64,000 bases of DNA from Antedon mediterranea (Eukaryota > Echinodermata > Crinoidea > Comatulida > Antedonidae): assembly GCF_964355755.1 (NCBI RefSeq), contig NC_092676.1:7608288-7672287 (forward strand), read 5' to 3'. The position numbers were made by a program, and so were the translations under genes. Position 1 is the stretch's first letter, and every line of letters starts with the position of its first letter. Of this stretch, positions 2,300 to 49,200 are shown piece by piece. Below the pieces are notes generated by a model. The model ran no database searches, was not told the origin of the DNA, and saw only the letters and a list, made by a program, of their open reading frames with translations.

Positions 2300-3590
2300 G
2301 GCCTACTTTTGTAATATGTTGAATCTTAAGTCGATGTTTATTAGTATATCACGGAGATCGGATGACGATGGTTCAGGAATAGTGATTTTGAGTCAGTTTT
2401 GGCGGAGCTAACTTACGTACGTTCTACATGACCTACATGACCTTTTCGACCTACATGACCTTTTCCTATACAAATAGTATATTTATAACTAATTTAAACT
2501 CGTGTAAATTGGTGTTTTATATATATATATATATATTAAATATAATAAATATATAGATACCATATTGCAATATTTTTTCAGATAAACAAATGTGCTTGGT
2601 TACATTTATAATATAGTATGGGTTCCAGACGGTTTTTTGACTTAATACTACAAGAATTCTTGGTGCATACGATTATCCGGTTGACTAGTTGTAGCCACAT
2701 GCGATTGGCTACTCACTCGTACACAGTTTTAATATTCATATGTCCGAATTTTGACAAATCTGGGAATATAAGTTGCGCTCTGTTACGTTGAACACGACGG
2801 TGTGGTGTGTTTTGTGTGCAACTACTGGGCTTACTGTGTGTTTGTGGTGGGGTGGGGAACGATGGCAACTTTTGCCTCTTGTTATTTTATAGTTTTACAA
2901 ACAATTACAATTCTCTGTTCTCCGTGTCGATGTCGTCGGAGGAGATGCACAGTGCGGCCTACTAGACACCCTAAACTCAGCTCTGTTTCTAGGCTTCTTT
3001 TTGTATTTGAATAAGACACAGGGGCTGTTCTTTTTTAAACGGTTACCTGCTTTACAAAGCGAGCAAAGGTATTTTTAACTTGCCCTTTTAGTTTCACAAT
3101 ATTTCTATGTATGGTTTTTATTTTCATGTCGCATAATCGACAACACGATATTTCGCTAATTTTACTTTGGGTGAGAGACGTACATTGTTGAGGGCTAAGG
3201 ATGATAACTAATTGCTTGTAAACGTCTGATTGAGTTGCCCCATGAAATAGCAATAACCTCCTTGATTTAAGAGTTACTTCCCCACAAACTGAGCATACGC
3301 ACTGAAGTTTGTGTGGGGACAGTACTTCTCGCGTATGTTGTTTTTAATGGGTTTTCTTCTTGACCTCGACATCCAAGTTTTAAGTAAGACTGTCCCATCC
3401 TCTAGTAGCCGGCCGATACTGTACCGACGTAAACTCGCTCGCGAAACTTTCGTCTTCATATTACATGAGGTAACTAGAACGCCAATATCTGGTCCGTTAA
3501 TTGGTTGATTCTACAACCATATATTTACATAAACCCGCTCATTAGCTAAATACGGTATGATAATCTACGTCATCCTTATCGATGTTTGCG
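2300..3590. other. intergenic with (TA)n and a dispersed repeat
   Basis: A (TA)n run sits near 2519-2537. The stretch from about 2619 ('gggttccagacgg' then 'gacttaata') recurs at about 32353 inside the receptor gene, so it marks a dispersed repeat. I see no gene here. Confidence 0.5.
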
Positions 3591-3596
3591 GTCTGC

Positions 3597-3858
3597 AAAT
3601 CGATTTGTATAGGCGTCTTACAAGTCTGTGTTTCAGGACAAAAATCAACACGCCGACGCCGACTAACATAAAAAAAGACAAAAATTTGGCAAATCGATTT
3701 GTATAGGCGTCTTACAAGTCTGTGTTTCAGAACAAAAATCAACACGCCGATTAACATAAAAAAGACAACAATTAAATCGATTTGTATAGGCGTCCTACAA
3801 GTCTGTGTTTCACGACAAAAATCAACACGCCGACTAACATAAAAAAAAGACAGCAATA
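3597..3858. repeat. three-copy tandem repeat, ~85-93 bp unit
   Basis: Three successive copies begin 'aaatcgatttgtataggcg' at about 3597, 3691 and 3774 and end 'gactaacataaaaaagac'. The 125-codon minus-strand ORF across them is a by-product. A related single copy ('ggactaacataaaaaagaaa') lies near 32503. Confidence 0.85.
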
Positions 3859-7600: not shown

Positions 7601-10600
7601 GTAAACCGAATCCACCGAAGAACAGCATTTGATAAATATCGCCCTCTGACACTTGTACTGATATTGCCCATATTGTCAGAAACAACGGTAAAAATAAAGA
7701 TATGCATATCATAATTCCTCTGTAAAAACAAATCGTTAACAATTGTATACTTAATTAATAATACAAAGGTCATTTGGACTCCAATGACCTCCAATCCAGA
7801 TGGCAACAGTTGAATTGAAGATGGACATTTTTTTCTTTTGATTTACACGTAAAATAGCCCAAGAAGCAATTATTGCTGTATTGAATTGTTTCTTAACAAC
7901 AATAGAACACATTATGGCTTTATAGAGATTGAAGAACAGTTGTGACGAAAATAAGACGGGTTACTACAAAGGATGATGATGACGACAATGATGATGATGA
8001 CTATGCCGATGACGATAATTGATACTTAGGCCTACCTGCATTGCATTACGCAATTTTCTTTTCGTTTCCCACGAAGTTTAGTTTTACAAGTTAGACACAC
8101 TAATGTCAAGATTGTTGACGTCTGCAGATAATTAATAGAAACAAATAAAAATAAATAAAATTCTCAAAAATGTCTGATTCATATCATCAATAAAGCGGTA
8201 AAATTATATTCCTAAACGGTCTTTGGTAAATGAAAATGTGTTTTATTGGAAACGAATTTTTATATTTCGTTTATTTACTATAATAAGACAGCTGATGGAC
8301 ATTCCTTTTTAGGAATTTTTCGTTTGCCAGCGATCTAGGAATAGTTACGCCATTTTGATATTTGTGCAAATTAATATTTTAGGACATTTTAGGTTGGTTT
8401 TGTGGAAGCTGCTATTAGGGAGGTTTCGCAACCTTACGAATACGATAATGAAAACGGATACGTCACGCATTTGTGAAACTTTTGAGCTGATCCCCATTTC
8501 ATATTCGTAAAGCGTATTCGTGTTGACGAATATCACCAGTCATATTCGTAACTACAAAACGAGTATAGTTTTTGATCTATTTTGCACATTTTGCATTTGA
8601 ATCAGGAATGATTCATGATTATAATATAATTATAGATTTATTGAAAGTAATTTACTAAAGTAATTTACTAAAATGCCAGGTCAATTTTGATAAATAGCAG
8701 TTTTTAAAGTCCTCACTCGCATTGATGTTACGCTAGGCCTAGGCAGCCAAGCACCAAGCAACACGTACCTGCGCTTCGCTCAAATTTACCGCAGTCATAT
8801 TTTGGACGGCGCCCTCAATATTTCATTGCCATGCGAAACAGATTTTTACTGGCTTACGAAAACAAATACGTGCGCGTGACGTATCCGTTTTCGTTATCGT
8901 ATTCGTAAGATTGCGAAACCTCTCTATTGTTAATTTCCTGGTGATTTTTGTTCTCTTTTTGTTTTGTATGATTATAATATGGAAGCACTATCCAAAATAA
9001 AGGAAATGAAATGAATGAATATTGATTGAAACTTTTGGCGGATTTTAAATACAAATCAAAAACTTCTCAACTTACAAGTAAGATAAGAAGAGTGGGCGTT
9101 GCAAATGCTGCAATGACACCCATTTCCATGTCTGTCCAGCACCTTGAAAACAAAAACGAGTTAAAACAGTTAGGCCTACTTCAACATGATAGTAACATCA
9201 TCTATTTTAATCATATATTTCACAAAAGCACCAAAGAGAATAAACTATCATCGTGATCTTATTATCTTTTTAGAGTAATCTTGTTTTTAGCCGCGTGGAC
9301 GCGACTCTATAGTTCACTATGTCGGTCGGTCGGTCGGTCTGTCGGTCTGTCTGTCGGTCCGGTATCACTATGCGTTTTAGCACGCGACTTATGGCTGTTG
9401 GCCTTGTTAATCATAAATTCCACAAAATGCATTAAAATTAATAGTGATTTTGAAATTGACATACAGTATTGTCGTCATTAGGGAGCTTTCGATTTCCGAC
9501 AACTCATGACCTAACTACGTCATGTTAATTCATTGTGCGCATGCGGGGGTAATTGTGACGTAATTTCTCACTACCCCACATTGACAGTTTCAATGGTTTC
9601 TAGGTTCAGGCGACGACCGACGACACATCGATTGACCTGACGTACAGTAGGTAGATGGTCGTAAATCGATAGTTCTCTAATATCATATTCGTGACGATGC
9701 TGTTCTGATATGGATCACAATTATTATTATTATTATTTGTTGCATTTTGTTTTGTTTTTAGGAGCATATTTTTAACAAGCTGTGATTTATCTTAGGTTCC
9801 TCCAATCTCATTTTGTTGAAGTAACGTCAAATGAAATCGAAAGTTTCCAAAACGATAAGGATCAACGACTCACCCTTCTGAATCTTCGTATCCGCGGTAC
9901 GTTCCAAAGAACAAAAATGTGAAGAAGCCTGACACGCCCCATGCTAGAGCAAAATGATACTTTGCTGCGTTTTTACCCTTCATATTATACAGTTTAGTGA
10001 ACAAGTTAAACACATCGACAAATATCCACATCACCATTGCTATGTACAAATACTGCAATATTACTCCTACTACAATACAGGTAATCTGAAACGTCAAATA
10101 ATATTTTAAAATGTTTTAAAATGTGTTTAATCTAATATGAACATATTCAATCATTGATGATTAATTTGAATTGTCTTTGCTTATACAGTACTGTATCAAT
10201 TTAAATTTATCGTGCCCAAATATGGTAGTGATATGACCAAATATGGTAGTGATATGACCAAATATGTTAGTGATATGTCCATAATGGGCACATAAAATGT
10301 TTTGTCACATAAAGTTTGATAGTGTAGACAAAGCTTTAGACAAATGTTACTGGCGCATACGCAACTACCCTCGAACGCTAGAAAGAAGTCATCTTTGTTT
10401 TATGAAAGATATATTTGCTACTGCAAATTTGCTTATTTAGCATGGAACAAACTGTATCATTAATTAGTGTACAATATAAACAAAAACACACGTTTTTTTA
10501 AAGTTAAGTCCAGTTTCCTCTCTCATAAAATCATGATTTTTGTCTTTAAAAAATACTTACATTGTCATCACTTAACTCCAGAGTGCATACGTACAAAAGC

Positions 10601-22600: not shown

Positions 22601-25600
22601 GTTTGCGATAGTTTATCAAAAAAGGACACGGTACTGCAAACAGTTAATGTTAATCTCTCAAGAGATTCAAACAAAACACTATATAGAACTTGAAAGGCAA
22701 ACAAAATCTGTACTAAACCAGCCTGGTTATGGTAAAATAATATTTCCATAACAGGCCTATAGCTCTAAAAGAAGTGTGATGTGTACACATGGTAGTATGA
22801 CGTCATCGTGTCCATATATGGGCACATAACGTTTGATAGTGTAGAAGGAGTTTAAGAATAAAGTAGTTTTTGTTTTCCATTTAAAGATGTATTGTCCCTC
22901 TAAAAAAATAATTTTTCACAATTTTTTTGTTGAATATGCCATTTTAATATAACATAATAGTTAACCACTTTTACCAAAAATTAGATCGAAAACAAATTTA
23001 TTTACCTGAAAAAACTACCAGCCAATGGATTTTTGGTTGAATTTAATCATTTATTTTGTCATTTTATAAGTTAAAACAATTTTTTCCCCGTTTTTTTTCT
23101 ATGGAAGTAATTAACTTGATTAAAACTACAAAATAACCTATTCAAAGTCTGAATTCATCAATCTTAATTTTTTTTTGGGGGGGGGGGGGAGGGGGGACAA
23201 TAAATCTTTAAGTAAGGCAAAAGTTTAAGTCTTAGTGCAATCCGTCTCAGATACGTAAGTCAGTTTGAATACACAATGTACCAATACAGTAACCCTAAGG
23301 CTATGTCTACACTATCAAACTATTTTTGTTTAAAGTGTGATGTGCACAAATATGGTAGTGATATGGCGTCATCATGTCTAAATATGGCCACATCACATTT
23401 ATTTTCACAAAGTTTCATAGTGTAGACAGAGCTTAAGCATCATCAACATATACAATCTACTCACCGACGTCAGCAGATTCATACGTAAATGAGGCGTTAA
23501 CTATAACATCTGGTGTTCTATCGAGAAAGATTTCCTCAACATTGGAAATAATTTCAAGCTGTGCTGCCAGAGCCTTAAAAAGGTAAAATATTGTATGTTA
23601 ATTAATATGGAAGCTACACTTTTGGAACAGTGGCACACTTTTGAAACAGTGGCACACTTTTGAAACAGTGGCACACTTTTGAAACAGTGACACACTTTCG
23701 GAACAGTGGCACAATTTTGGAAAAGTGGCACACTTTTGAAACAGTGACACACTTTTGGAACAGTGACACACTTTTGGAACAGTGGCACAATTTTGGAAAA
23801 GTGACACACTTTTGGAAAAGTGACACACTTTTGAAACAGTGACACACTTTTGGAACAGTGGCACAATTTTGGAAAAGTGACACACTTTTGAAACAGTGGC
23901 ATACTTTTGAAACAGTGGCACACTTTTGAAACAGTGGCACACTTTTGAAACAGTGGCACACTTTTGAAACAGTAGCACACTTTTGGAAAAGTGACACACT
24001 TTTGGAAAAGTGACACACTTTTGAAACAGTGACACACTTTTGGAACAGTGACACACTTTTGGAACAGTGGCACAATTTTGGAAAAGTGACACACTTTTGG
24101 AAAAGTGACACACTTTTGGAACAGTGACACACTTTTGGAACAGTGACACACTTTTGGAACAGTGGCACAATTTTGGAACAGTGGCACAATTTTGGAAAAG
24201 TAACACACTTTTGGAACAGTGACACACTTTTGGAACAGTGACACACTTTTGGAACAGTGACACACTTTTGGAAAAGTGACACACTTTTGGAACAGTGACA
24301 CACTTTTGGAACAGTGACACACTTTTGGAACAGTGGCACAATTTTGGAACAGTGACACACTTTTGGAACAGTGGCACAATTTTGGAACAGTGACACACTT
24401 TTGGAACAGTGACACACTTTTGGAACAGTGGCACAATTTTGGAACAGTGACACACTTTTGGAACAGTGGCACAATTTTGGAACAGTGGCACACTTTTGGA
24501 AAAGTGACACACTTTTGGAACAGTGACACACTTTTGGAACATTGGCACTTTTGTAACAGTGGCACAGTTTTGGAACAGTGGCACACTTTTTGAACAGTGG
24601 GACACTTTCAGAACAGTGTCACACTGTGGAACAGTGGCACACAGTGGAACAGTGGCACAGTTTGGTTCAACAAATTATATTTTTAATTATAAAAAAACAA
24701 ATTATTATTCTGAAAGGTTATGGTTAAACCAATCAATTTCGACAACATACAATAAAGGTTTTTCGCTTTATTTTAGGCTACGATTTTCACAAAGAGTACA
24801 CAAATTATTCCGACCTTTTTCTGTATCGGTTGAATGAGAGCTTCTGATATCAAAGTGGCGCCCTGTAAGTAATAAAAGCAAATCGTAATTTAGTAAATCC
24901 GGTAGGTGGTCACAAAAGAGAACTAGCTGAAACCGGGCTTAGCTTAGTCCAGATTTAGCTTAATTTAGGCTTAGCTTAGTCCAGGTCTAGCTTAGTCCAT
25001 CAAAAATGTATACCTACATGGAAAATGTCAATATATTTGAGGACACTTGAGGAAAAGTCAGAAACATAAACAAATATTTCATTCCATAAGTTAAAAAATG
25101 AAGCAGTATGATAGCAGACACCACATCGCGAAGATGTGCATTGGTATTTGTTGCAGCCAGATATAAGATCAAAGGACTGTTCGAGTTCCTTCTATCTCGG
25201 CAAGGCGAGCTCAGCGTGCTGCTGTTAGATTGCCTTGATTTAAGTTTATTGAGTTTTGGCGAGTTTTGTGACAACCTTAAGCTACCTTTGGAAACTTACA
25301 ACAACTTGGCTCTGTGACGATTCCTGATCAGGTGTTGCTGAATTATCTTCCAAAAGAACATCTAAAGTTAAAAGTAAAGTTGTTTCTTCCTCTTCGCCCA
25401 GTTTTCGTCCATCTAGATTCTCTACGGCTATAATGCTTATTTCGACAATAAGATCCACTTCATCACCAGTTATATTTTCAAAATTCTTAAAAATAACAGA
25501 GATAGTATTTAAATAAGTGTTGCGGTACGTCGTATTTCAAAAAAGAAAATAAAGTAAAGTTGGAAATGTCTCAGCGTTTCTAGATTAACAGATATAATTA

Positions 25601-28228: not shown

Positions 28229-31200
28229 TAAAGAAAGTAAAAACAGTGTAATAAATAAAGTAGTTTTGAGTATGAGTTGGTCAAAGTGCACTCATGTGAT
28301 TCATATACAATCTAGTCTAGTGTCTAGCCGTATAAAAAGCATTGAATTAGTTGTGCAGTTAGGTTAGAGAGAAATTAAAAACAAAATTAGAGTAGACATA
28401 CCGTATATAGAAATATAGAACTCGCAGATGGCTTCATTTCTAGACTCATCTCTTGCTGTTAAAAATACCCGCGTTGATCCAACATCAAAAGCTGATCCGT
28501 TGTCACGATTCCACCAAGAGTCTATGTTTCCGAGACTGTTATCAAATAACACAACGTCGTTCCAAGTCGTATTTCGAGTTGGCTTTTGATAGTTCATTGG
28601 TAGTGATATGTCAGAAGGACAATTTGAAATTAATGGCGGTTCGGTATCTAAATTAGATAATAAATGGAATTAAAATGAAATGTTTATAAAGTTTGTGTCT
28701 AAAACTGATACAGTATACTTGGTTTAACTAAAAGGCAATTATAAGATGTTTATTTTCAAACTTACAGAAAGAACTGGAAAGATAATAATAACAAAAGAAA
28801 ATGAAAGAAAGGGAATGAAAAGAAACAAATAAAAAAAACAGAAAAATAAAAAAAAATGAAAGAAAAAAAGAAAAGAAAGAAAGAAAGAAAGAAAGAAAGA
28901 AAAAGAAAGGAAAGAAAGAAAGAAAAAGAAAGGAAAGGAAGAAAACAAAACGAAAGAAAAGGAAAGAAAGAAGGTAATGAAAGAAAAGAAACAAGTTCTA
29001 GAAAAGAAACAAGTTCTAAAACAGATTTTGGAAAGATAAGATATTCAAAACTTACCGATAATTTCAACTTCAAACGAGCACGTATCATTCGGGTTATTGT
29101 CGTTGTCAGTTGCCTTGTATACTACCACTGTTACTCCAAGACTAAATATATCACCAGGATTATAGTTGGACACAACATGGGGCTGGTTACCGCTGTTGTC
29201 TTGAGCTATTGGGTTTGGCCAGACGACAGAATGTGTTTGTAATCGTAGATCTGTACTGTTTGTGATGTTTCTAGGGCAGTACGTAAAATATGGAGATTCA
29301 GTGTCTACATTAAAAAAGTAAAACATTTTGTTTTTAAGGAATGATTGATTTTTACATACTGTACGTATAGGTTACTGTAAGATTTTAAAAATTAAGACAA
29401 AAAATGATAACTTGCCTAATACTGTTACAACAAAGGAGCAGTTTCCAATGTTGCCAAATGGATCAGTTCCATTGTAGTGAATCACGGTATCTCCAATATG
29501 GAACGCCGAGCCCGTCGTAATTGAGGCTGTTAAATTTACGTACAGTCCACTGTTGTCGGTTACTACTGGATCTGGAAATTCTACAATACCAGACGGTAAC
29601 CTGTATGTGTTTTCAACAGACGATACTTGTGGACAGGTAAGGACCGGTAACTCATCGTCTGTAAATAAAATAAAACAGAAACAATTGTTAAATAAATAAA
29701 TACTCAAGCTCTCAAAATAATAATGTGCCGCTCAGGAGAAACAGAAATAAACAGTACCATGTTGTTTAATTAATTAACACTGACAATGATTGTAACATAA
29801 AGCAATTTATACCAATTATTGAGATGTAAAATTCGCAAATAGCTTCGTTTCCCGATTCGTCTCTTGCTGTCAGGAATACGTATGTCGGACCAATAGCGAG
29901 TACAGAACCATTTTCAATGTTCCACCAAGAAGCTATATCTCCGAGACTGTTATCAAACAATACAACATCATTCCATGTCGTTTCTCTAGTTGGTAACCGA
30001 TAGTCTGTTGGCAGGGATGTGTTAGCTGGACAGTTTGAGATAACTGGAGGCTCAACATCTTCAAGTAGAAATTAAGAAAGAGAATACTGTAATAGATTCA
30101 TTCAAACAAGCTTAGAAAATACATCATCTAAACTCTGATTTAGGTCAATGATTTTGATTAAGTCAATTTTCAAAATAATTTTCAACATATTTTGTTTTTA
30201 AATTTTAGATAACGCAGCCTTCCATTCTAAAAAACAAATTGGTTTGATAAAGGATCAGTTTTTCACTTAAGTACGTTTTAACTATCTGAACTTGAGATGC
30301 CTTGCTTCAGTTATTGAATCTTTTTATTGAATGGATAAGTTAAGTAGGAATGTAACGTTATGTTGGTTAGTGGGCATCTTATCTTATAAATCCAAAAAGC
30401 ATTACATCTGAATGGCAATCATAATGTTTACAGCTATTAAAAATAATGGCAGGTCACAATCAAATTAAACCAACACACCGATAATATCAACTTCAAACGA
30501 GCACGTATCATTCGGGTTATTGTCGTTGTCAGTTGCCTTGTATACTACCACTGTGACTCCAAGACTAAATATATCACCAGGATTATAGTTGGACACAACA
30601 TGGGGCTGGTTACCGCTGTTGTCTTGAGCTATTGGGTTTGGCCAGACGACAGAATGTGTTTGTAATCGTAGATCTGTACTGTTTGTGATGTTTCCAGGGC
30701 AGTACGTAAAATATGGTGATTCCGTATCTGAAATATGTTGAATTATCATTATAAGTTTTGCTTTTATTTGTCTTTGAACTCAAACCAGCGTTACTATCTA
30801 CAAATGTGAAATTTGCATTTCATCATTGTTTATAGGCCTACCTAATAACACTGTAACATATTTAAAATTAACATTAATTAATCACCTTCAACTGTCACTA
30901 CAAAGGAGCAGTTACCGACGTTAGCAAATGGATCCGTCCCGATATACTCCACTACCGTCTGTCCAAGAGTAAAGTTTGAACCAGAAGAAATAGAGAATGT
31001 TAAGGTGACGTCAAGACCACTGTTGTCAGTCGCACCAGGATCTGCCCACGTGACGACGGCAGACGGCAAACGGTACGCATTTTGTACAGTTACTTCTGTA
31101 CAGGTTAATAAGGGAGATTCTTCATCTGTAAGAAAAAGAATGTGCGTCGGTAAATGGCGATGAAAATGCTTAATAGTTATCTAATAAATAAATAAATAAA

Positions 31201-34200
31201 TAAATGATCAGTTTAGATTCATTGTAGAATAACCAGTACTGTAAAATAGGCCTACCATAAACGTTTATGTAAAATTCGCACGCGGCGTCATTTCCCGATT
31301 CATCCCTTGCTGTTAAATTCACAACCGTTGATCCAATCTGAAACCCGAAATTTTTAGGAATGCTCCACCAAAAGTCAATTTCACCAAGACTGTTGTCATT
31401 GAGTGTCGCATCAGTCCATGTGGTTGCCCCTGTGGGCATGCGATGGTCCGTTGGAATGGTCTGGTTTCCTGGACAATTTGTTATTACTGGATTTTCATAA
31501 TCTGTAAATGAATTAGACAACTGTTTTATTAAAATTCTACCCAGTAAATGATATACAGTACCATAACAGAATTTTACTAGTAAATCTTTAGAAATAAATC
31601 AATGCTGTGTAACTTACCGATAATTTCAATTTGAAATGAGCAAGTTGTATTTGGGTTATTGTCGTTGTCTGTTGCCTTGTATGCTACCACTGTGACTCCA
31701 AGACTAAATAAATCACCAGGATTATAGTTGGACACAACATGGGGCTGGTTGCCGCTGTTGTCTTGAGCTATTGGGTTTGACCAGACGACAGAATGTGTTC
31801 GTAACCCTGGGTCGGAGCTGTTAGAAATATCTTCTGGACACAAGGTGAAATATGGTGATTCCGTATCTAAAAAGGTTTCAAATAATCTTTGCAAGTTAGT
31901 GGGTATTTCTCTTATTTGAGGCTTGAAAGAACATGTATATTATTACAATTCTTAAACTAGTTCAATAATTTGAATGACTCGCCTTCAACTGTTACAACAA
32001 AGGAGCAGTTACCAACGTTACCAAAGGGATCCGTCCCGTTATACTCCACTACCGTCTGTCCAAGATTAAAGTTTGAACCGGAAGGAATAGAGAATGCCAA
32101 TGTTACGTCAAGACCACTGTTGTCAGTCGCACCGGGATCTGCCCACGTGACGACGGCAGACGGTAAACGGAACGCATTTTGTACAGTTACATCTGGACAT
32201 GTTAATACTGGAGATTCTTCATCTGCAATAAAAAGAAAAGAATGTAGTCATATATATGTATATCATGGGGGTATACCTTCATGTGTATATCAACAATAGA
32301 GCTGAACCTCAAGGATCACTTTTAGCAAAAAAAAAGTCTTCAGGCCATATGTTAGTCTGGGTTCCAGACGGAGTTTTGACTTAATATTAGTAAAAAGATA
32401 AATATTTGGCACTTATGGCGTTTCACACGTATACTACTTGAGCTTGAAAACTCCCATTAAACTGTAAACTATTTTCAGGCAAAAGTCGAAACGTCGACCG
32501 GTGGACTAACATAAAAAAGAAAACAAATACATACTTGGGGAAAGGCTAGTTACATGTGTACTAATGTGTAAATTGCCTAAAATATACAATACAATAGTTT
32601 GTCCTTTTTTAATTACCATAAACGTTGATGTAAAAGTTGCACGTTTCTTCATTTTCCGATTCATCTCTTGCTGTTAACGTTACAGTAGTTAATCCAATCG
32701 GAAAATCGGTATTTTTTGGAATGCTCCACCAAAAGTCAATTTCACCAAGACTGTTGTCATTGAGTGTCGCATCAGTCCAAGTGGTTGCCCCTGTGGGCAT
32801 GCGATGGTCCGTTGGAATGGTCTGATTTCCCGGACAATTGATTATAATTGGAGCCTCATAATCTAGAAAGAGAGGACATTTTATACTAAACAATTTCAAT
32901 TTAATTTCTACATACACAACCTACAAGCATGTACATGGATGATGCATCCTTTAAGATTTAAGATATTTAAGCTAATAAGCATAACTTTAGACAAAATACA
33001 ACCGACACCCCACCCCAAAAAATCCGTTTGCTCATCAAGTTTGATCTTTAAATTAAATAAGATTAAACTAGAACGTATATTATTTCTGAAAACAGGATCA
33101 AAATAAAAGATAATTGACACACAAAATCTTTACAGAAAGAAATAAAGAAGAAGAATAATAAAGATTTTATACAATATCGTAACGATAGGTGATACTTTTA
33201 TTGTAGTTGATCACCTAAAAATTACATAAAATAAATTAGCAATATTTGATTACAAAACATTTCAAATCATCTATACTCAATCAAGATACATACCAATAAC
33301 TTCAATGTTAAATGAGCATGTTGTGTTTGGATTGTTGACATCATCTGTGGCCTTATACTCCACCGTCGTATTTCCAATGTTGAATACATCACCAGAATTA
33401 TAGTTGGACACAACATGAGGTTCGTTACCACTGTTGTCGCTGGCCACTGGATCTGTCCATTCAACAGCGTTATTCCATACTCCTGGATCGGCACTGTTTG
33501 AAATATCGTCCGGGCAAAATGTAAAATACGGTGACTCCGTATCTAAATAGTAATTGATTTTTTAAAGGGTATTATCAGTATAACTTTTACAGAAGTACTT
33601 GGTATTCAAATAAAGCTCTCATCAATATTAGGATCCCATCCTACTCCAAATTAATCAGTAAGCCTACAATGGCTTTGGCGCGCCTTACACCACCTGAAGT
33701 GCTCAGTTATTCGACTCACTTAAGCAAATAATAAAGAGATAAAACCCTTTTCGTTTAGACACTCAAAGAAACACTTTTCCGTAAACAAAGGAGAGGCAAT
33801 ACTGTAAGTTTTCACACTACAGTCAACCTAATTGAGAGGGTTACGTCGTTGTGTCCTGAAAGTGTCTCTTGTTCTACTGAAGTTAAACTAACCTTCCACT
33901 GTTACTGTAAATGTGCATGTTTCCATATTACCAAATGGGTCAGTTCCATTATACTCAATCAGAGTACTTCCAAGGACAAAGTTTGAACCAGATGGAATAG
34001 AGGAGGTTAACGTAACGTCAAGACCACTGTTGTCAGTCGCACCAGGGTCTGCCCATGTGACGACGGCAGACGGTAAACGAAAATCGTTTGGAGCGGTAAC
34101 ATCGGGACATGTCAGCACTGGCGGTTCATTATCTGTCGATCAAATAATAAAAACGTTTTTGAAGTTGGAAAATGTTTTATTAATGTCAAATGAATTGATT

Positions 34201-37200: not shown

Positions 37201-40200
37201 AGACAAGCAGACAACAGTGAAAAATGTGTAGATGTGAACAATTTAAAAATTGCTCCGAGTCTTCGAACCTGTTTGGTGGATGCAACTCGGTAAAAGAAAA
37301 ACTGAGTTAGGTCGTCTATGGTCAAGGTAAAATTTTAAAATGTAGATTGATCAATAGTATAATCAGTGGCGTAACGACGGCTATGAGCCAGGGGTCCGGA
37401 TCTTATGGGGGTCCCTGAGCAGTGTCCAGAGGAAAAAACAGGCATTAACATATGTCGAAGAGGCAAAACAACACCTAAGGCCTCTAGCGTTGGAGGGCTA
37501 CACGGGATTCCTAAGCCAGGGGCCACAGTCCTATGCGTTAAGACACGGAGTATAATTCATAGAGTGTGAAAGGAAGTGTAGGGTCAAAGGTCACACAATT
37601 CCTATGACTGGGTTTATGTTCTATTGAACATAGTAGGCCTATCTCTAGTTTGTTTTTTTTAGATTCGTAACGAATAAAATAAAACATGTATGCTTACCGT
37701 ATACAGTGATGACAACGGTCGAAGAGGCATCATCAGTGTTGCAGTCTCCATCATCAGTACTGTATTTAATTTTACTTGTACCAATATCGAATACCCCACT
37801 AAGAGCTGAGTTGGACGCACTTACTGTAAACGGCCGCTGGTCCTCGAATACAGGGGCTTGCCACGTCACCGTCGCAGTTGGTAGACCTTGTATCGTCGGT
37901 TCGGGGTCTGGGTCTATTTTTTCAATGACCTGTGTTGGGTATCGGTCTAAATAAAATGTAAATAACTGACTTTAAAATATTCGTTACTAATCACAATAAT
38001 TGCATTTACAATGAGAAGGTAAGCCTAACTCTTGCGTCATTCTCCATTCATAACGATGAATATAATGATAACCATAATACGCGATAACATCCATAAAGGT
38101 GACGACGCAAAATACGACGACGGGAACAATGATGATCAATTTATGGTAACAAATGACGGACATGACGATGAAAACAAACATGAAAATAGTAATAAAGTAA
38201 CGTATGGTGCCTATGACAAAAATGGACGACGAGAAACGTAAACAATTAAGAACATAAAACGCAATTAAAGGCGATATTGTCTACTATAACTAAGCTGACT
38301 ATGACGACAACAACAAGGAAAATGATGGTGACAACAACGGCAAGACAAATGACGATGACAAATATAGGAGTACCTTTATTATTTTCTACAGACCTAATTT
38401 AGCTTTAACCCAAATGTAATTGATGCTTCAGCTTCCGTTATACATTTATATAAAACATGACTGAATAACAATTGACATAATTACCTATACCCATACAGTA
38501 AATGTATACAGATTGTAACGGAAAGTAACATACATACCTAAAACCCCGTACAGTATGTATATAGATTGTAACGGAAAGTAACATAGATACCTAATACCCG
38601 TATAGTAAATGTACATAGATTGTAACGGAAAGTGACATAGATACCTAATACCCCGTACAGTAAATGTACATAGATTGTAACGGAAAGTGACATATAGGCC
38701 TACCTAATAATAAACCGTACAATAAATGTACATTGATTGTAACGGAAAGTAACATAGATACCTAATACCCCGTACAGTAATGTACATAGATTGAAATGGA
38801 AAGTGACATAACTACCTAATACCACGTACAGTAATGTACATAGATTGAAATGGAAAGTGACATAGATACCTAATACCCGTACAGTAAATGTACATTGATT
38901 GTAACGGAAAGTGACATAGATACCTAATACCCCGAACAGTAAACGTACATTGATTGTAACGGAAAGTGACAGATACCTAATACCCCGTACAGTAAATGTA
39001 CATTGATTGTAACGGAAAGTGACATAGATACCTAATACCCGTACAGTAAACGTATATAGATTGCAACGGAAAGTGACATAGATACCTAATACCACGTACA
39101 GTAAACGTACATTGATTGTAACGGAAAGTGACATAGATAACTAATACCCAGTACAGTAAATGTACATTGATTGTAACTGAAAGTGACATAGATACCTCAT
39201 ACCCCGTACAGTAAACGTACATTGATTGTAACGGAAAGTGACATAGATACCTAATACCCAGTACAGTAAATGTACATTGATTGTAACTGAAAGTGAAATA
39301 GATACCTAATACCCCGTACAGTTAATGTACACTAATTGTAACGGAAAGTGACATAGATACCTAATACCCCGTACAGTAAATGTACATTGATTGTAACGGA
39401 AAGTGACATAGATACCTAATACCCGTACAGTAAACGTACATTGATTGTAACGGAAAGTGACATAGATACCTAATACCCGTACAGTAAACGTACATTGATT
39501 GTAACGGAAAGTGACATAGATACCTAATACCCGTACAGTAAACGTATATAGAGTGTAACGGAAAGTGACATAGATACCTAATACCCCGTACAGTAAACGT
39601 ACATAGATTGTAACGGAAAGTGACATAACTACCTAATACCCGTACAGTAAATGTACATTGATTGTAACGGAAAGTGACATAACTACCTAATACCCCGTAC
39701 AGTAAATGTACATAGATTGAAATGGAAAGTGACATAACTACCTAATACCACGTACAGTAATGTACATAGATTGAAATGGAAAGTGACATAGATACCCAAT
39801 ACCCGTACAGTAAATGTACATTGATTGTAACGGAAAGTGACATAGATACCTAATACCCCGTACAGTAAACGTACATTGATTGTAACGGAAAGTGACATAG
39901 ATACCTAATACCCGTACAGTAAATGTATGTTTTATGTCGGTTTTATAAAAGCGCAACTATAAATTTATATGCACGTCATTACATTTATATTTATGATACT
40001 GTACAATTAATATGATGTATACAACTTTTTCTCAACTTCCATTCCACGATATAGATTATTCTGATGAATTACATGCATCACATATACCTCCAGAAATAAA
40101 TAATGCTGATTTTAATCCTCTGATAGATAACGACCTAAAATTCGACCAACAATCCAACATGTTAATAGATCATTTTAATTTAAGGTCATCCACGCTTGAT

Positions 40201-43200
40201 AATTGCAAATATCATGATATCAATATATTTAATAATTTTACTGGAAAATTACCAGATAGTAATCACCTATCTCTATTACATCTTAACATCAGAAGTGTAT
40301 CTAATAAATTTGATAAACTTAACGAACTCGTACATTCTATTAACTTAAAATTCAGCATAATTGGCCTTTCTGAAACCTGGTTGAATGAAAGCAAAATGCA
40401 TCCATTTCTTCATAATTATACTTTTTTATCTAGTGATCGCATTGGCAATAAAACAGGAGGTGGTGTTGGCTTGTTTGTTAAAAACCATATTAATTATAAT
40501 ATCAGAAATGACTTAATATTGCCAAAAGAAATATGTGACTCACTATTTATAGAAATCATTCATAAAAATAAGAAAAATTCTATTATTGGCATTATCTATA
40601 GACCACCGGATTCCAATATTGATACCTTCTCTACAATAATAAATGACCTACTAACTAAAATAAATTCTGAAAATAAATATTGTAATATAATGGGAGATTT
40701 TAATATTGACCTTATTAAATTTCATAACCATAATCATATAAATAATTATCTAAATACTATTTTATTAAATTCTTTTTTTCCTACTATTTCGAAACCAACC
40801 AGAATTACAAAAAATACTGCGACTCTTATTGATCATTTTTATACAAATCACATAAATCTTGAAATAACATCCGGAATAATAATATCAGATATCTCTGACC
40901 ATCTACCTATATTCCAAATAATTGACTATGATTTATGTTTTAAAAACACCTCAATTGATTACTCACATTATGTTGCAGACATAAATTCACTAAATTTTGA
41001 TCTATCGCAGGCTGATTGGTCAAGTGTTTATAATGCTGATTATAAATCTGCTATTGATACATTTAATGATATATTTTTTAGTATTTATCAACGACACTTG
41101 GTCACTAAAGAAATTAAAATAAATAAATATAAAAAATGCAAACAGCCTTGGATGACCCCTACTCTTCTTAAAAGCAGTCAACGAAAACACTACCTTTATA
41201 AAAAATATATTAAATCTCAGAGCCCAAACGACAAAACAACATACACAAGTTATAATAATTTGTTTATTGCTCTTTGTCGTACTGCTAAAAAACAATATTA
41301 TGAAAGAAAATTCAATCAAGTCAAAACAAATATTAAGAAAGTTTGGGGTGTGATCAATTCTGTTTTAAATCCAGCTAGAAAAAATAATAAAAATCCCTCA
41401 GTCTTGAAAATTGGGGATGAATTTATTTATGATACTAACTCTATATGTGATCACTTTAACAAATATTTTTCAGAAATCGGTTTAAAAACGCTCAACTCCA
41501 TCCCAGATAATAATATTGATCCAATGTCGAATTTACCACCCCCACCCATTAATTCATTTTTTATTAACCCAGTCACTGAAAATGAAGTGTTGAACATGAT
41601 CAACAGTCTAGACTCTAATAAAGGATCAGGACACGACTCCCTTACACCTTCTGTTCTTAAAAAAGTTACTCCTTTTATTTTAATTCCTCTTACTTATGTT
41701 ATCAATTTATCTTTTACTACAGGAATCGTACCTGATCATATAAAATTAGCTAAAGTGGTCCCAGTTTTTAAAAAGGGAAATGCAAACTTACTTAACAATT
41801 ATAGACCGATTTCCGTTCTCCCCATTCTCTCAAAAATAATAGAAAAATTAATGCATACTCGTCTTTATACATATTTAACTAAACATAACATCCTAAATAA
41901 TCATCAATATGGTTTTCGTAAAAAACACTCTACCTGTCACGCTATGCTTGAACTTATACATTCAATTAATAATGCATTTGAAAATAAAGAATTTTTGTTA
42001 AGCACTTTTCTTGATCTATCCAAAGCTTTTGATGTTGTTAATCATGATATTTTACTTTCAAAACTGTTACGTTATGGCATTAGAGGTGTTTCGTTAAAAT
42101 GGTTTATTAGTTATCTTAGTAATCGTAAACAATATGTACAGATTGGTAACTGTAAATCATCGGCAAAGAACGTTCCATGTGGTGTACCACAGGGGTCGGT
42201 CCTTGGACCCTTATTATTTCTTATTTACGTAAATGACATAACCTTTGTTAGTGATACACTGAATATTGTTTCCTTTGCCGATGATACAACTTTATTTTAT
42301 TCAAACAAAAATATTGATTTATTAGTAAATACCTTTAATTTAGAATTAAATAAGATTGAAAATTGGTTCTCTTCTAATAAATTATTGATTAATACTTCAA
42401 AAACAAATTTCATTATATTTCACTCCCATCGAAACAGGCATAAATTAAGTAACAAAAACATTCAGGTTGTTCTAAATGGTAAAAATCTGGACCGAAAAAG
42501 CGAAACTTTATTTCTTGGAATTTTAATTAATGAAAACTTAAATTGGACCGGTCATCAGAAAAATATTTCAATCAAAATGTCTAAATGCATTGGTGTTATA
42601 AACCAGATAAAATATTTTTTTCCTCAACACATTTTACTTTCTTTGTATAATTCGCTTATATTACCACATTTACTTTATTGCAATATTATATGGGCAGCTG
42701 ATTATCCATCAAATTTACATAGAATTTTCATTTTACAAAAACGTGTTGTTCGATTATTAAACTTTGAACAATCTACATCTGCATCAGAACCTTTGTTTAA
42801 AAAACTTAAAATTTTAAAAATATATGACCTTCATAAACTTCAAGTTACTTCTTTTATGTTTGAATATGTTACTGGTTTACTACCAAAGTCTGTTTCAATG
42901 TTATTTTCAAATCGTTTATTAGATCATACCTATAACATAAGAAATCCACATAAATTGTATGTTCCATTTGTTAAACTTAGAAAAAGCCAGTTTTTTATTA
43001 CTTATTTAGGACCAACGTATTGGAATAATCTAGATTCAACTGCCATCAATCATTTATATACTGTAAATTCATTTACAAAGCATATAAAAATCCTTTATTT
43101 ATCTTGTTACCAAACCTACTAAATATGTTGCGCACTGTATAATTTATTTAATTGTATGCGTTGTATTTGTATATTTATACGGTACCGTTCTTATTTTTGT

Positions 43201-46200
43201 TTGAATTATTATTATTATTATTTTAGGGGTCAATGTGAGACAAGTTCTACTTCTAATTTTGATCCCTAAGATGGTCTTATATTAATTGTTTATGATTGTT
43301 TATTGTAATATTGTTTGTTATATATTGTGACCATCTTAAATAAATGTATTATTGAATTGAATTGAATTGACATTGATTGTAACGGAAAGTGACATAACTA
43401 CCTAATACCCCGTACAGTAAATGTACATAGATTGAAATGGAAAGTGACATAACTACCTAATACCACGTACAGTAATGTACATAGATTGAAATGGAAAGTG
43501 ACATAGATACCCAATACCCGTACAGTAAATGTACATTGATTGTAACGGAAAGTGACATAGATACCTAATACCCCGTACAGTAAATGTATATAGATTGCAA
43601 CGGAAAGTGACATAGATACCTAATATCACGTACAGTAAACGTACATTGATTGTAACTGAAAGTGACATAGATACCTAATACCCAGTACAGTAAATGTACA
43701 TTGATTGTAACTGAAAGTGACATAGATACCTAATACCCCGTACAGTAAATGTACATTGATTGTAACGGAAAGTGACATAGATACCTAATACCCCGTACAG
43801 TAAACGTACATTGATTGTAACGGAAAGTGACATAGATACCTAATACCCGTACAGTAAACGTATATAGATTGTAACGGAAAGTGACATAGATACCTAATAC
43901 CCGTACAGTAAATGTACATTGATTGTAACGGAAAGTGACATAGATACCTAATACCCGTACAGTAAACGTATATAGATTGCAACGGAAAGTGACATAGATA
44001 CCTAATACCCCGTACAGTAAATGTACATTGATTGTAACGGAAAGTGACATAGATACCTAATACTCCGTACAGTAAACGTACACAGATTGTAACGGAAAGT
44101 GACATAGATACCTAATACCCAGTACAGTAAATGTACATTGATTGTAACTGAAAGTGACATAGATACCTAATACCCGTACAGTAAACGTACATTGATTGTA
44201 ACTGAAAGTGACATAGATACCTAATACCCCGTACAGTAAACGTACATTGATTGTAACGGAAAGTGACATAGATACCTAATACCCCGTACAGTAAACGTAC
44301 ATTGATTGTAACGGAAAGTGACATAGATACCTAATACCCGTACAGTAATGTACATAGATTGAAATGGAAAGTGACATAGATACCCAATACCCGTACAGTA
44401 AATGTACATTGATTGTAACGGAAAGTGACATAACTACCTAATACCCCGTACAGTAAATGTACATAGATTGAAATGGAAAGTGACATAACTACCTAATACC
44501 ACGTACAGTAATGTACATAGATTGAAATGGAAAGTGACATAGATACCTAATACCCAGTACAGTAAATGTACATTGATTGTAACTGAAAGTGACATAGATA
44601 CCTAATACCCAGTACAGTAAATGTACATTGATTGTAACTGAAAGTGACATAGATACCTAATACCCCGTACAGTAAATGTACATTGATTGTAACGGAAAGT
44701 GACATAGATACCTAATACCCCGTACAGTAAACGTACATTGATTGTAACGGAAAGTGACATAGATACCTAATACCCGTACAGTAAACGTATATAGATTGTA
44801 ACGGAAAGTGACATAGATACCTAATACCCGTACAGTAAACGTACATTGATTGTAACGGAAAGTGACATAGATACCTAATACCCGTACAGTAAACGTATAT
44901 AGATTGTAACGGAAAGTGACATAGATACCTAATACCCGTACAGTAAACGTACATTGATTGTAACGGAAAGTGACATAGATACCTAATACCCGTACAGTAA
45001 ATGTACATAGATTGCAACGGAAAGTGACATAGATACCTAATACCCCGTACAGTAAATGTACATTGATTGTAACGGAAAGTGACATAGATACCTAATACTC
45101 CGTACAGTAAACGTACACAGATTGTAACGGAAAGTGACATAGATACCTAATACCCAGTACAGTAAATGTACATTGATTGTAACTGAAAGTGACATAGATA
45201 CCTAATACCCGTACAGTAAACGTATATAGATTGCAACTGAAAGTGACATAGATACCTAATACCCCGTACAGTAAACGTACATTGATTGTAACGGAAAGTG
45301 ACATAGATACCTAATACCCGTACAGTAAACGTACCGTATATAGATTGTAACGGAAAGTGACATAGATACCTAATACCCCGTACAGTAAACGTACATTGAT
45401 TGTAACGGAAAGTGACATAGATACCTAATACCCAGTACAGTAAATGTACATTGATTGTAACGGAAAGTGACATAGATACCTAATACCCGTACAGTAAATG
45501 TACATTGATTGTAACGGAAAGTGACATAGATACCTAATACCCGTACAGTAAACGTACATTGATTGTAACGGAAAGTGACATAGATACCTAATACCCAGTA
45601 CAGTAAATGTACATTGATTGTAACGGAAAGTGACATAGATACCTAATACCCCGTACAGTAAACGTACCGTATATAGATTGTAACGGAAAGTGACATAGAT
45701 ACCTAATACCCCGTACAGTAAACGTACATTGATTGTAACGGAAAGTGACATAGATACCTAATACCCAGTACAGTAAATGTACATTGATTGTAACGGAAAG
45801 TGACATAGATACCTAATACCCGTACAGTAAATGTACATTGATTGTAACGGAAAGTGACATAGATACCTAATACCCGTACAGTAAATGTACACAAATTGTA
45901 ACGGAAAGTGACATAGATACCTAATACCCCGTACAGTAAATGTACACAGATTGTAACGGAAAGTGACATACCTAATACCCGTACAGTTAATGTACACAGA
46001 TTGTAACGGAAAGTGACATAGATACCTAATATCCGTACAGTAAACGTACATTGTAACGCAAATTGACATACTTACCTAATATCCGTACAGTAAACGTACA
46101 CAGATTGTAACGCATTATTCCACCACTGCTAACTGATGCTACGTACTCTACAATGGTTACACCCAGTGGAAACGAGTAGCCGGGTTCAATTGTTGACGAT

Positions 46201-49200
46201 ATGTCTGGTTGGGGGTGAAAAATCGAAAACTCCATATCGGTCGTTGGAGGTGTCCATGTAATAATGGCTGTCGATGATGAGTTGGTGATAAGGAATTCAA
46301 CATCATCTGGACAATCATGGATCCGTGGTTCGTCTTCAGTGACTTTTTTTTAACATAAATTAAAAAAAATAACATTAAAATTGAAAATCGTTCTAATCGT
46401 GGCCTTTATACTTTTTTTTTTTTTGCAATTTGATACCCTCCCTAAGTTTGGTTCCCACTATGTCGTAACGCAAATAAGTTGACCAATGACAAGCAACAGT
46501 TTGAATATTCTGTCGGTTGAAATGGCATATTAAAAAATAGATATATAATAAAAGGGGGACAATAAATCTTTAAACAACACACAGATATAAATTGGAATGT
46601 ATACGGTCGGGCATTTATATTATTGCGTAAGATTCAATCCCACGACCATCAAAAAAACGTGTGTTGCTAGCTGTACGCGTAACACATTTCCGCTTTCTTC
46701 GATCGTGCACACTTCCTTACGCGCGCGCTTGTGCCACGGTAACGATGTTTCCATGAGAAACTTCATGACAACTAAACAAAACATAACTTGGATGAATTTT
46801 CAAGAGTGATCACGGACTCTACAAAGCTCAGTAAGTGTCTACTTATTGTTTATTATTATACTACAATATAATGTATACTTAATTTAAATGTTAAATACTT
46901 CAATTTGTTTAGATATGAATCAGTTGAAAGCTTATAACAACTGTGACTCCTACTACTAAATAAAGAATCAAAACCCTGTCTGACTTTTTAGGCACACTTA
47001 GGAACACGTTTCACGTTTTGCTTCTCCTGGTATATTCGATTTTAAGAATCTAGCATCAACTGGAGTTTAAAACATGTTTCTGTTTTGTATTTTAGATTGA
47101 ATACTTTCTGTTAGAAGTTTTTCTACTTAAACCTTCTAGAGGTAAGCAATATTTTAAATAATATTCATTATTTATAGGGCATTTATTTGTATATGGTGCA
47201 GAGATTGTATTAACAAAGATTACACTGTTTTATTCATAAATAGAGAATTATTTTAATGCAGAAATAACTTTTTTTTCAATCAGAATAATTAAACACGGGA
47301 ATGCCTGGCCCAGCCAGTTATTTAATCCCCCTCAGTCAATACATTTAAGTCAAGACTTGACATTGTTAAGACCAGACATGGAAGCAAATAGGAACTAACC
47401 TGAACTAATTCCTTCCAAACATTAAGTGTAATTAATAGGGCATCTTTCATTTGTATATGGGGCAGCGGTCGAAGTAACACGAACTATACCAGTCTATCGT
47501 AATTTGAATGTAAGCCTACTGACATTACTGTACCATGTGTCCTTTGTGTTTCAGATATGCCTGGAAGGTCCTGGAGAAACCCCTTTAAAACTTGTAAACC
47601 CAGAAAATGCTTTAGGAACAGGTATGTGAGATACAGTCAATTTTTTTTCCAGCAGAGAAAAAAAAGTATGAAAAAGTATGACGAAGTATAATATTGATTA
47701 TTGACAAAAAAAAACTCCGAAAAATACAATAAAGATATTGTTTTGTTTAATTTTCAGCCGGTCAGCCATTTCAGGCTTTTTCAGGAAATATGTCATGTGC
47801 TGTTTTTACAATGCTAACGATGATGACAATGATCAAACATCATTTCAAACCTGGTTGAGCGTACCACCTGCCTTAAGAATTGCAATTATCCAAATCATAT
47901 ATGGAATTGCTATTCTCACCCTGCCTCAAACATCGGCCATCGGATACGATAAACAGGAATTGCCATTTGGCATTGACAATGACATAATAAGTGGATTTGG
48001 AAGAGATCTCCTTATTCTGGATGGACGCGTCTTTGGACGTAAAAACGGCGAACCTGACTCAATGGTAGCTCTTAACTGGATAAGAAAATGGTGCCTCCTG
48101 GACGTTATCAATAATGTACCGGCAATTGGATACACACCAGATGGAAGGGACAGTAACAGCTACACAACGAATGGATATTGCCCAAGTCTGTCTAGCCCAC
48201 TGACCTCATCACCAATATGTAACACTTGGAGCAAACAAGACTTCAAGACTTCTCCAACTTCGGAACACTGGATAAAACGCATGTCACTTGAAATCCGGAT
48301 AATGGACGGAAACCTTAAAAACCATGTTCAATATTTAGCATCTGATCGTCTGTATCCAGCAACGAAGGATAGTCACCAGGTAGGTTGAATTGAATTTGAA
48401 AGGTTCAACACTCCAATCAAAGCTTTTGACAGATAATTTTTAAATGTTTTTATGACATGACAGAAAGAAACATTATAAATTATTGTATACGTGTTTACTT
48501 TATAGATAGTACTTGGCACTGGTTCCTATGGCAGAGTTTTACTTAATCGCCTTGGAGATTGTAATGGCAAACTTGTGGCTGTTAAGGCTATCATCACAAC
48601 AACCAATAAGCCTAGAAAATTCAATCGGTTCGCCGACAAGCTGGCAGTTTCCCTTGAAGCTAGAATAATGAAGGAGTTATCCCAAGAAAGCGACGTGTTT
48701 CCGCGGGTGTATGGTGTTTGTGAAGCAGTTACCTCCGACACACAATGGGCCATTGTTATGGAATTTGTTGGCGACTCAACATCATTCAAATCAACATCAT
48801 TGATGAAAGCTTTAGCATCTGGTTCACCACATATTACCACGATTGATTGTTTTCGCATTATTTTTGACATCGCAAAAGGAGTTGAGATACTTCGGATGAA
48901 TGGTTTAATTCACAATGACCTGGCGACTCGGAATGTTCTTATTTACAACAAGGGTCCTCGTATCTCTGCAAAAATTGTCGATTTTGGCTCAGTTTGCACC
49001 ACAGAAGCACCGTTTGATGTCTTCCAATTGAATAATACCGACAAAGCCGATGTCTTCGACCTCATGCAAGATCACCCGGAAAATGCACCAGAGCTGTATA
49101 ACATCAACACACCACCGACCTTTGCCTCAGACATCTACAGTCTTGGTGTCATAATTGAAGGCATTGCCGCCAACAAAGCATTAATGTCGCTAATGGATAT

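Follow-up and report, generated by a model that had tools for sequence, protein, structure and literature searches.

An intronic minisatellite probably founded by a coding exon end and its splice donor in an HYR gene of Antedon mediterranea

Introduction

Ordinary intronic minisatellites, or variable number tandem repeats (VNTRs), show a homogenized interior, diverged edges, and unit-length variants. A minisatellite consisting of splice donors was reportedly described by Turri et al. in 1995 in the human gene IFI6 (6-16, G1P3); its unit is about 12 bp long, lies at an exon/intron boundary, and is close to the donor consensus. According to passages of a later source, two downstream repeat units of IFI6 serve as alternative donors (PMC4526556). 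Tandem duplication is also connected with intron gain: passages of a further source set out the Rogers model, in which AGGT-containing exonic segments are duplicated in tandem, with ATP2A1 as a case, and report multiple 24-bp AGGT duplications in intron gain of fission yeast (PMC4974935). Herein, we analyzed a stretch of 64,000 nucleotides from the crinoid Antedon mediterranea (C7:7608288-7672287, hereafter the window), in which a large minisatellite lies in an intron of a minus-strand gene with a long series of HYR exons, directly behind one of these exons. The repeat unit resembles a segment running from the 3′ end of that exon across the splice donor into the intron start. In a literature search for such an arrangement, whose scope excluded most subscription journals, IFI6 was the only direct precedent that we recognized.

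Results

Origin of the repeat unit

The 3′-terminal 41 nt of the exon at 46333-46076 aligned to the array consensus without gaps at a score of 22.5, whereas 2,000 letter shuffles did not exceed 11.5 and the ends of 284 other HYR exons (counted after removal of duplicates) did not exceed 15, indicating that the likeness pointed out in a preliminary description of this DNA exceeds chance. The exon copy continues into the HYR reading frame. The exon/array junction was then searched for in the whole assembly (354 Mb, 18 contigs), with only the best candidates scored and very common words skipped, and every one of the 21 DNA matches lay within the array. A 20-base pattern with up to three mismatches gave 64 matches. 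The 30 matches with zero or one mismatch were all in the array, and the other 34, located elsewhere, had three mismatches, while the reversed control gave 214. Neither the DNA search nor the pattern search of the 354-Mb assembly found the unit above chance outside the locus. A dispersed satellite was ruled out within the reach of these searches, as the matches above chance were confined to the locus.

A tree rooted on the exon was built from 76 of the 77 copies, the copy cut by an inserted retrotransposon being left out. Copy 1, which adjoins the exon, branched next to it (support of 0.855 for the other 74 copies), followed by a group with copies 2-4 (0.718), which also takes in copies 18, 37, and 61. 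Support is moderate, which is to be expected of units of 55 bp. Copy 1 retains GGATATTAG and GTCAATTTGCG, and its donor is GTATCT. Within the array, TATGTCAATT was found only twice, behind the donor of the exon and at the distal edge (38479), and 70 copies read TATGTCACTT in its place. Because TATGTCAATT is confined to the two edges of the array, the best reading of the distal edge is that it represents the intron start as it originally was. The preliminary description had placed a consensus-type intron start in the copy nearest the exon. The exon's own donor does read GTAAGT, but the distal edge also has an ancestral-like start, GTAATTATGTCAATT. Since the searches found the unit above chance at this locus alone and the ancestral intron start persists at either edge, an origin of the array in place, from the exon end and its donor, is well supported.

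Structure of the array

Tandem Repeats Finder (TRF) reported a period of 55 in two blocks, and a regular anchor counted 77 copies including that of the exon itself. The 76 intronic copies agree with the estimate of about 75 given previously, and the proposed composition of the minisatellite, an exon end plus a splice donor, was borne out. The repeat had been delimited as one array at 38488-46112. It is real but not continuous, as a long interspersed nuclear element (LINE) of ~3.4 kb splits 46112-43370 from 39927-38473. The unit length of ~55 bp was correct for 37 of 75 usable intervals, but 29 intervals were 54 nt and nine had other lengths. The general statement that the length is not a multiple of three does not hold, as 30 of the 75 intervals are divisible by three.

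The 77 copies collapse to 42 distinct sequences, and a search for repeated blocks of identical units found a single run of four. Among 11 copies listed, the nearest-neighbor distance was 0.11-0.23 for copies 1, 2, 72, 75, and 76, 0-0.04 for copies 3, 4, 5, 73, and 74, and 0.27, with gaps counted, for the exon copy. A head-to-tail unit within the range of 10-100 bp, present above chance at one locus in the genome searches, places the array among minisatellites. The features of the locus are collected in Table 1.

Table 1. Features of the HYR exon, the array behind it and the inserted element (positions in the window; the slash marks the exon/intron boundary)
Feature	Position	Strand	Remark
HYR coding exon, 3′ end as putative founder of the unit	46076-46333	-	258 nt, phase 1-1
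Exon end, donor, and first intronic copy	46029-46116	-	Unit alignment, tree
Exon's own donor, TAG/GTAAGT	46070-46075	-	Top score of the donor matrix
In-frame stop TAG met on read-through from the exon	46026-46028	-	
Intronic copy with fair donor, TAG/GTATGT	45966-45971	-	67th percentile
Exon-proximal part of the minisatellite	43370-46112	-	TRF, 50.3 copies
Non-LTR (long terminal repeat) retrotransposon (LINE) inside the array	39940-43371	+	Boundaries approximate, by eye
Distal part of the minisatellite	38473-39927	-	TRF, 26.7 copies
Intronic copy with fair donor, TAG/GTATGT	38532-38537	-	67th percentile
Distal edge copy, ancestral-like intron start GTAATTATGTCAATT	38470-38484	-	
Next HYR-like exon	37698-37946	-	Pfam HYR, 20.4 bits, slightly below the cut-off of 21.7

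Donors in the copies and splicing potential

Weight matrices for donors and acceptors were derived from the HYR exons predicted in this genome, among them the target; they comprise 301 distinct GT donors and 309 acceptors, assigned by position from the match to a hidden Markov model (HMM). The top score, which the donor of the exon shares with others among the family (5/301 donors in all), was reached by none of the other GT sites among the 4,053 on the minus strand of the window. GT is kept at the donor position in 75 of the 76 intronic copies. As described previously, most copies differ from the GTAAGT of the exon: 63 read GTATCT (59 after TAG, three after TGG, and one after GAG), and the other 13 comprise eight GTAGTT, two GTATGT, one GTAATT, one GTAGGC, and one with TT replacing GT. 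None of the 301 predicted HYR GT donors starts with GTATCT, and TAG/GTATCT was at the 7th percentile of HYR donors (8.6th with a smaller set). The suggestion that the copies act as decoy donors or bind U1 is weak, as the prevalent type would be a poor donor. Three edge copies have fair donors, the two in Table 1 and one at 38484 (53rd percentile). U1 duplex energies were discarded, since their folding windows were out of register with the donor.

Reading past the donor of the exon gives 16 codons, the split glycine codon counted, and then the stop at 46028, at the end of copy 1. Therefore, every contiguous extension into the array is predicted to give the same truncated protein. Isoforms with extra repeats, which had been envisaged earlier, are contradicted by this stop when they are made by simple extension. 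Internal cassette exons are conceivable, though none of the 95 AGs of the array exceeded the 10th percentile among the 309 predicted HYR acceptors. The array contains 72 AG/GT junctions.

The LINE splitting the array

The LINE has an open 1041-aa reading frame for endonuclease and reverse transcriptase (39997-43122, plus strand; Pfam RVT_1 and Exo_endo_phos). A 931-bp piece of it had at least 15 other full-length matches in the genome with 98-100% identity, 40 of 132 candidates being scored. Because of these near-identical matches, the insertion is probably young, and it is probably later than the array. No clear target-site duplication was seen by eye at the junctions of the LINE. Its 3′ tail is ATTGA-type by eye.

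The HYR gene and its surroundings

In the window, 26 matches to a home-made HMM reach the end of the HYR domain. An open reading frame (ORF) at 9870-10115 is similar to a transmembrane segment of the secretin family, its score of 20.2 bits against Pfam 7tm_2 falling slightly below the cut-off of 20.6, and the gene is a likely candidate for an HYR adhesion G protein-coupled receptor. The exon at 46333-46076 itself passed the Pfam HYR model with 38.7 bits against a cut-off of 21.7 (E value of 1.3e-9). The intron between this exon and the next HYR-like exon, whose first position is 37946, is 8,129 nt long, compared with a median of 327.5 nt over the 24 introns of the gene with both ends assigned, this intron included.

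A diverged duplicate of window positions 47315-46151, covering the upstream intron and most of the exon, lies ~300 kb away (C7:7340389-7342072). Its identities are 80% and 87%, and its reading frame is broken. As a polarizing outgroup it was rejected, because it stops inside the exon at 46151, ~40 nt short of the first repeat copy. The sequence that follows it is kinase-like by eye.

Three further observations concern the same gene region. Plus-strand ORFs at 47705-49306 lie between HYR exons and are probably nested in an intron of the minus-strand gene; the one scanned, at 48506-49306, matched Pfam PK_Tyr_Ser-Thr (E value of 1.4e-20), and another lies at 47705-48388. A second large minisatellite at 23616-24663 has a 19-bp unit in 55 copies, and its minus strand is open in three frames. 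GC-type donors, which account for 8 of 194 distinct donor contexts, are predicted at HYR exons at 29414-29415 (TAG/GCAAGT) and 31981-31982 (AAG/GCGAGT).

Survey of other HYR exons

A survey for exon-end copies covered 362 HYR domains from 25 sources: 23 stretches picked for dense HYR matches, the window, and a single leftover locus. It did not take in L009, L010, and L016, which represent the target locus and its paralogous fragment, or four loci that overlapped sampled stretches. A donor was assigned for 347 and an acceptor for 353 of the 362 domains. Removal of duplicates and of sites close to stretch ends left 299, 299, and 302 sites, the denominators used below. A score of at least 20 was reached by eight of the 299 donors. 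Among the seven of these that were listed, two were real exon-end duplications within the exon's own intron, the target being one of them. Four others (L021, L022, and L023 twice) were rejected as the next tandem exon, since their shifts (383-391 nt) match the spacing to the HYR donor that follows, and one in L020 (index 3633) was set aside as a third, different case. In the controls, matches were found at 0/299 acceptor junctions, 0/302 mid-exon sites, and 4/299 intron interiors (target included). Repeats of the ordinary intronic kind are therefore no rarer than exon-end duplications. An enrichment at donors over acceptors or mid-exon sites is not claimed because the numbers are too small.

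The second real case lies in L020 (C10:11872500-11882400) at 3536-3672 (~C10:11876133). It is a 66-bp, two-copy duplication over the exon end, the donor, and the intron start. Its breakpoints carry AAAC, and three differences separate the copies over 70 aligned bases, one of them converting the donor of the second copy from GT to AT. This duplication is likely an independent early stage of the same process. A third intron, also in L020 (5976-6097, ~C10:11878767), contains three 40-bp copies of the donor and the first ~21 intron bases. These copies lie ~190 nt inside the intron, their donor motif is unchanged, and an in-frame stop directly follows the real donor.

Discussion

We consider it quite likely that the array arose by a tandem duplication across the exon/donor junction and was amplified into an array that is mostly inert for splicing. 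A segment comprising the final ~40 nt of the HYR exon, the donor, and ~15 nt of the adjoining intron start would have been duplicated in place. Later, unequal exchange or slippage would have amplified a copy in which GTAAGT had by then become GTATCT, and the intron would have grown from ~0.5 kb to 8.1 kb, the later LINE included. The 5′-most donor, the exon's own, would stay strong and define the exon, so that splicing is expected to remove the array with the intron, to which it would mainly add inert length. Most of the copies, their splice signals weakened, are probably harmless passengers. That the array originated where it lies is shown by the sequence, whereas the order of events, the removal with the intron, and the near-inertness of the copies are what we infer from it.

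Several points weigh against this explanation. It is based on the DNA sequence of one assembly, from which inertness and donor usage are deduced. By plain identity to the exon columns copy 1 is not the nearest copy (0.86, with others up to 0.88), because 4 nt were lost from it. The three edge copies at 45971, 38537, and 38484 retain donors at the 53rd-67th percentile. The acceptor of the exon scores weak, at the 3.6th percentile of 309 predicted HYR acceptors, and for this reason the exon may be skipped or poorly included. The duplicate ~300 kb away ends before the array and is therefore of no use for its age. Finally, the 40-bp copies in L020 have an unchanged donor; therefore, donor loss is no general rule.

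The fair donors at the array edges bear on another explanation, in which they, or the many weak donors together, compete for U1 as a regulated decoy and thereby lower the usage of the exon or make a truncated soluble receptor. The stop 16 codons past the exon would give one defined truncated product from any downstream donor, and human IFI6 employs two downstream repeat units as donors, as stated in passages of PMC4526556. However, the donor of the exon is top-scoring in the family matrix and lies 5′ of the copies, and 63 of 76 copies carry a start seen in 0/301 HYR GT donors. Moreover, premature stops usually lead to mRNA decay. We therefore regard a regulated decoy as unlikely. It is very improbable that the units serve as recursive-splicing points (an AG/GT ratchet) or as frame-keeping 54-nt cassette exons. 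The 72 AG/GT junctions and the 30/75 intervals divisible by three would suit these roles, but the 95 AGs score low as acceptors and most donors are weak.

The direction of the process might also be reversed, with a minisatellite that existed first supplying the exon end, and the likeness of exon end and unit alone gives no direction. But the exon end encodes a C-x-F-x-V strand and a phase-1 G donor that are common to most listed HYR exons, the unit was not found elsewhere in the genome, and the intron start is kept at both array edges, all of which leave this order of events the slimmest of chances. The preferred explanation, duplication across the junction, could be widened: HYR exons of this genome would repeatedly seed minisatellites from their own donors. 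The junction would be duplicated, a copy would usually persist only once its downstream donor was lost, and expansion would follow. The two-copy duplication in L020 would then be an early and the 77-copy array a late stage, with the fair edge donors leading to a truncated soluble receptor. This extension is doubtful.

The locus would represent the birth of a minisatellite whose founder, the end of a coding exon plus the adjoining splice donor, is still legible, and what is probably an early stage of this process occurs in the same exon family. It raises a testable question, namely whether a duplicated donor must be disabled before an intronic array grows beside a working exon. It also suggests one route by which single introns far outgrow their neighbors (8.1 kb vs. 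a median of ~0.33 kb).

Like ordinary VNTRs, the array has a homogenized interior, diverged edges, and unit-length variants; unlike them, its founder is a coding exon end plus donor and is still recognizable. As in AGGT intron gain, tandem duplication yields repeated AG/GT sites in a coding gene. However, there an exonic segment makes a new intron, whereas here the segment spans an existing donor and would lengthen an existing intron. A new intron made by AGGT duplication was rejected for this locus, as the array lies inside an intron that ends at the usual HYR phase-1 boundaries. As in IFI6, the units carry donor-like sequence and the array abuts an exon. Unlike the ~12-bp unit of IFI6, the unit here is 54/55 bp long and contains coding sequence from the exon end. 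Most copies bear a donor type absent among the predicted donors of the family, and their sequence scores predict weak use. By its anatomy, the array would stand beside IFI6 as a large variant with mostly weakened donors.

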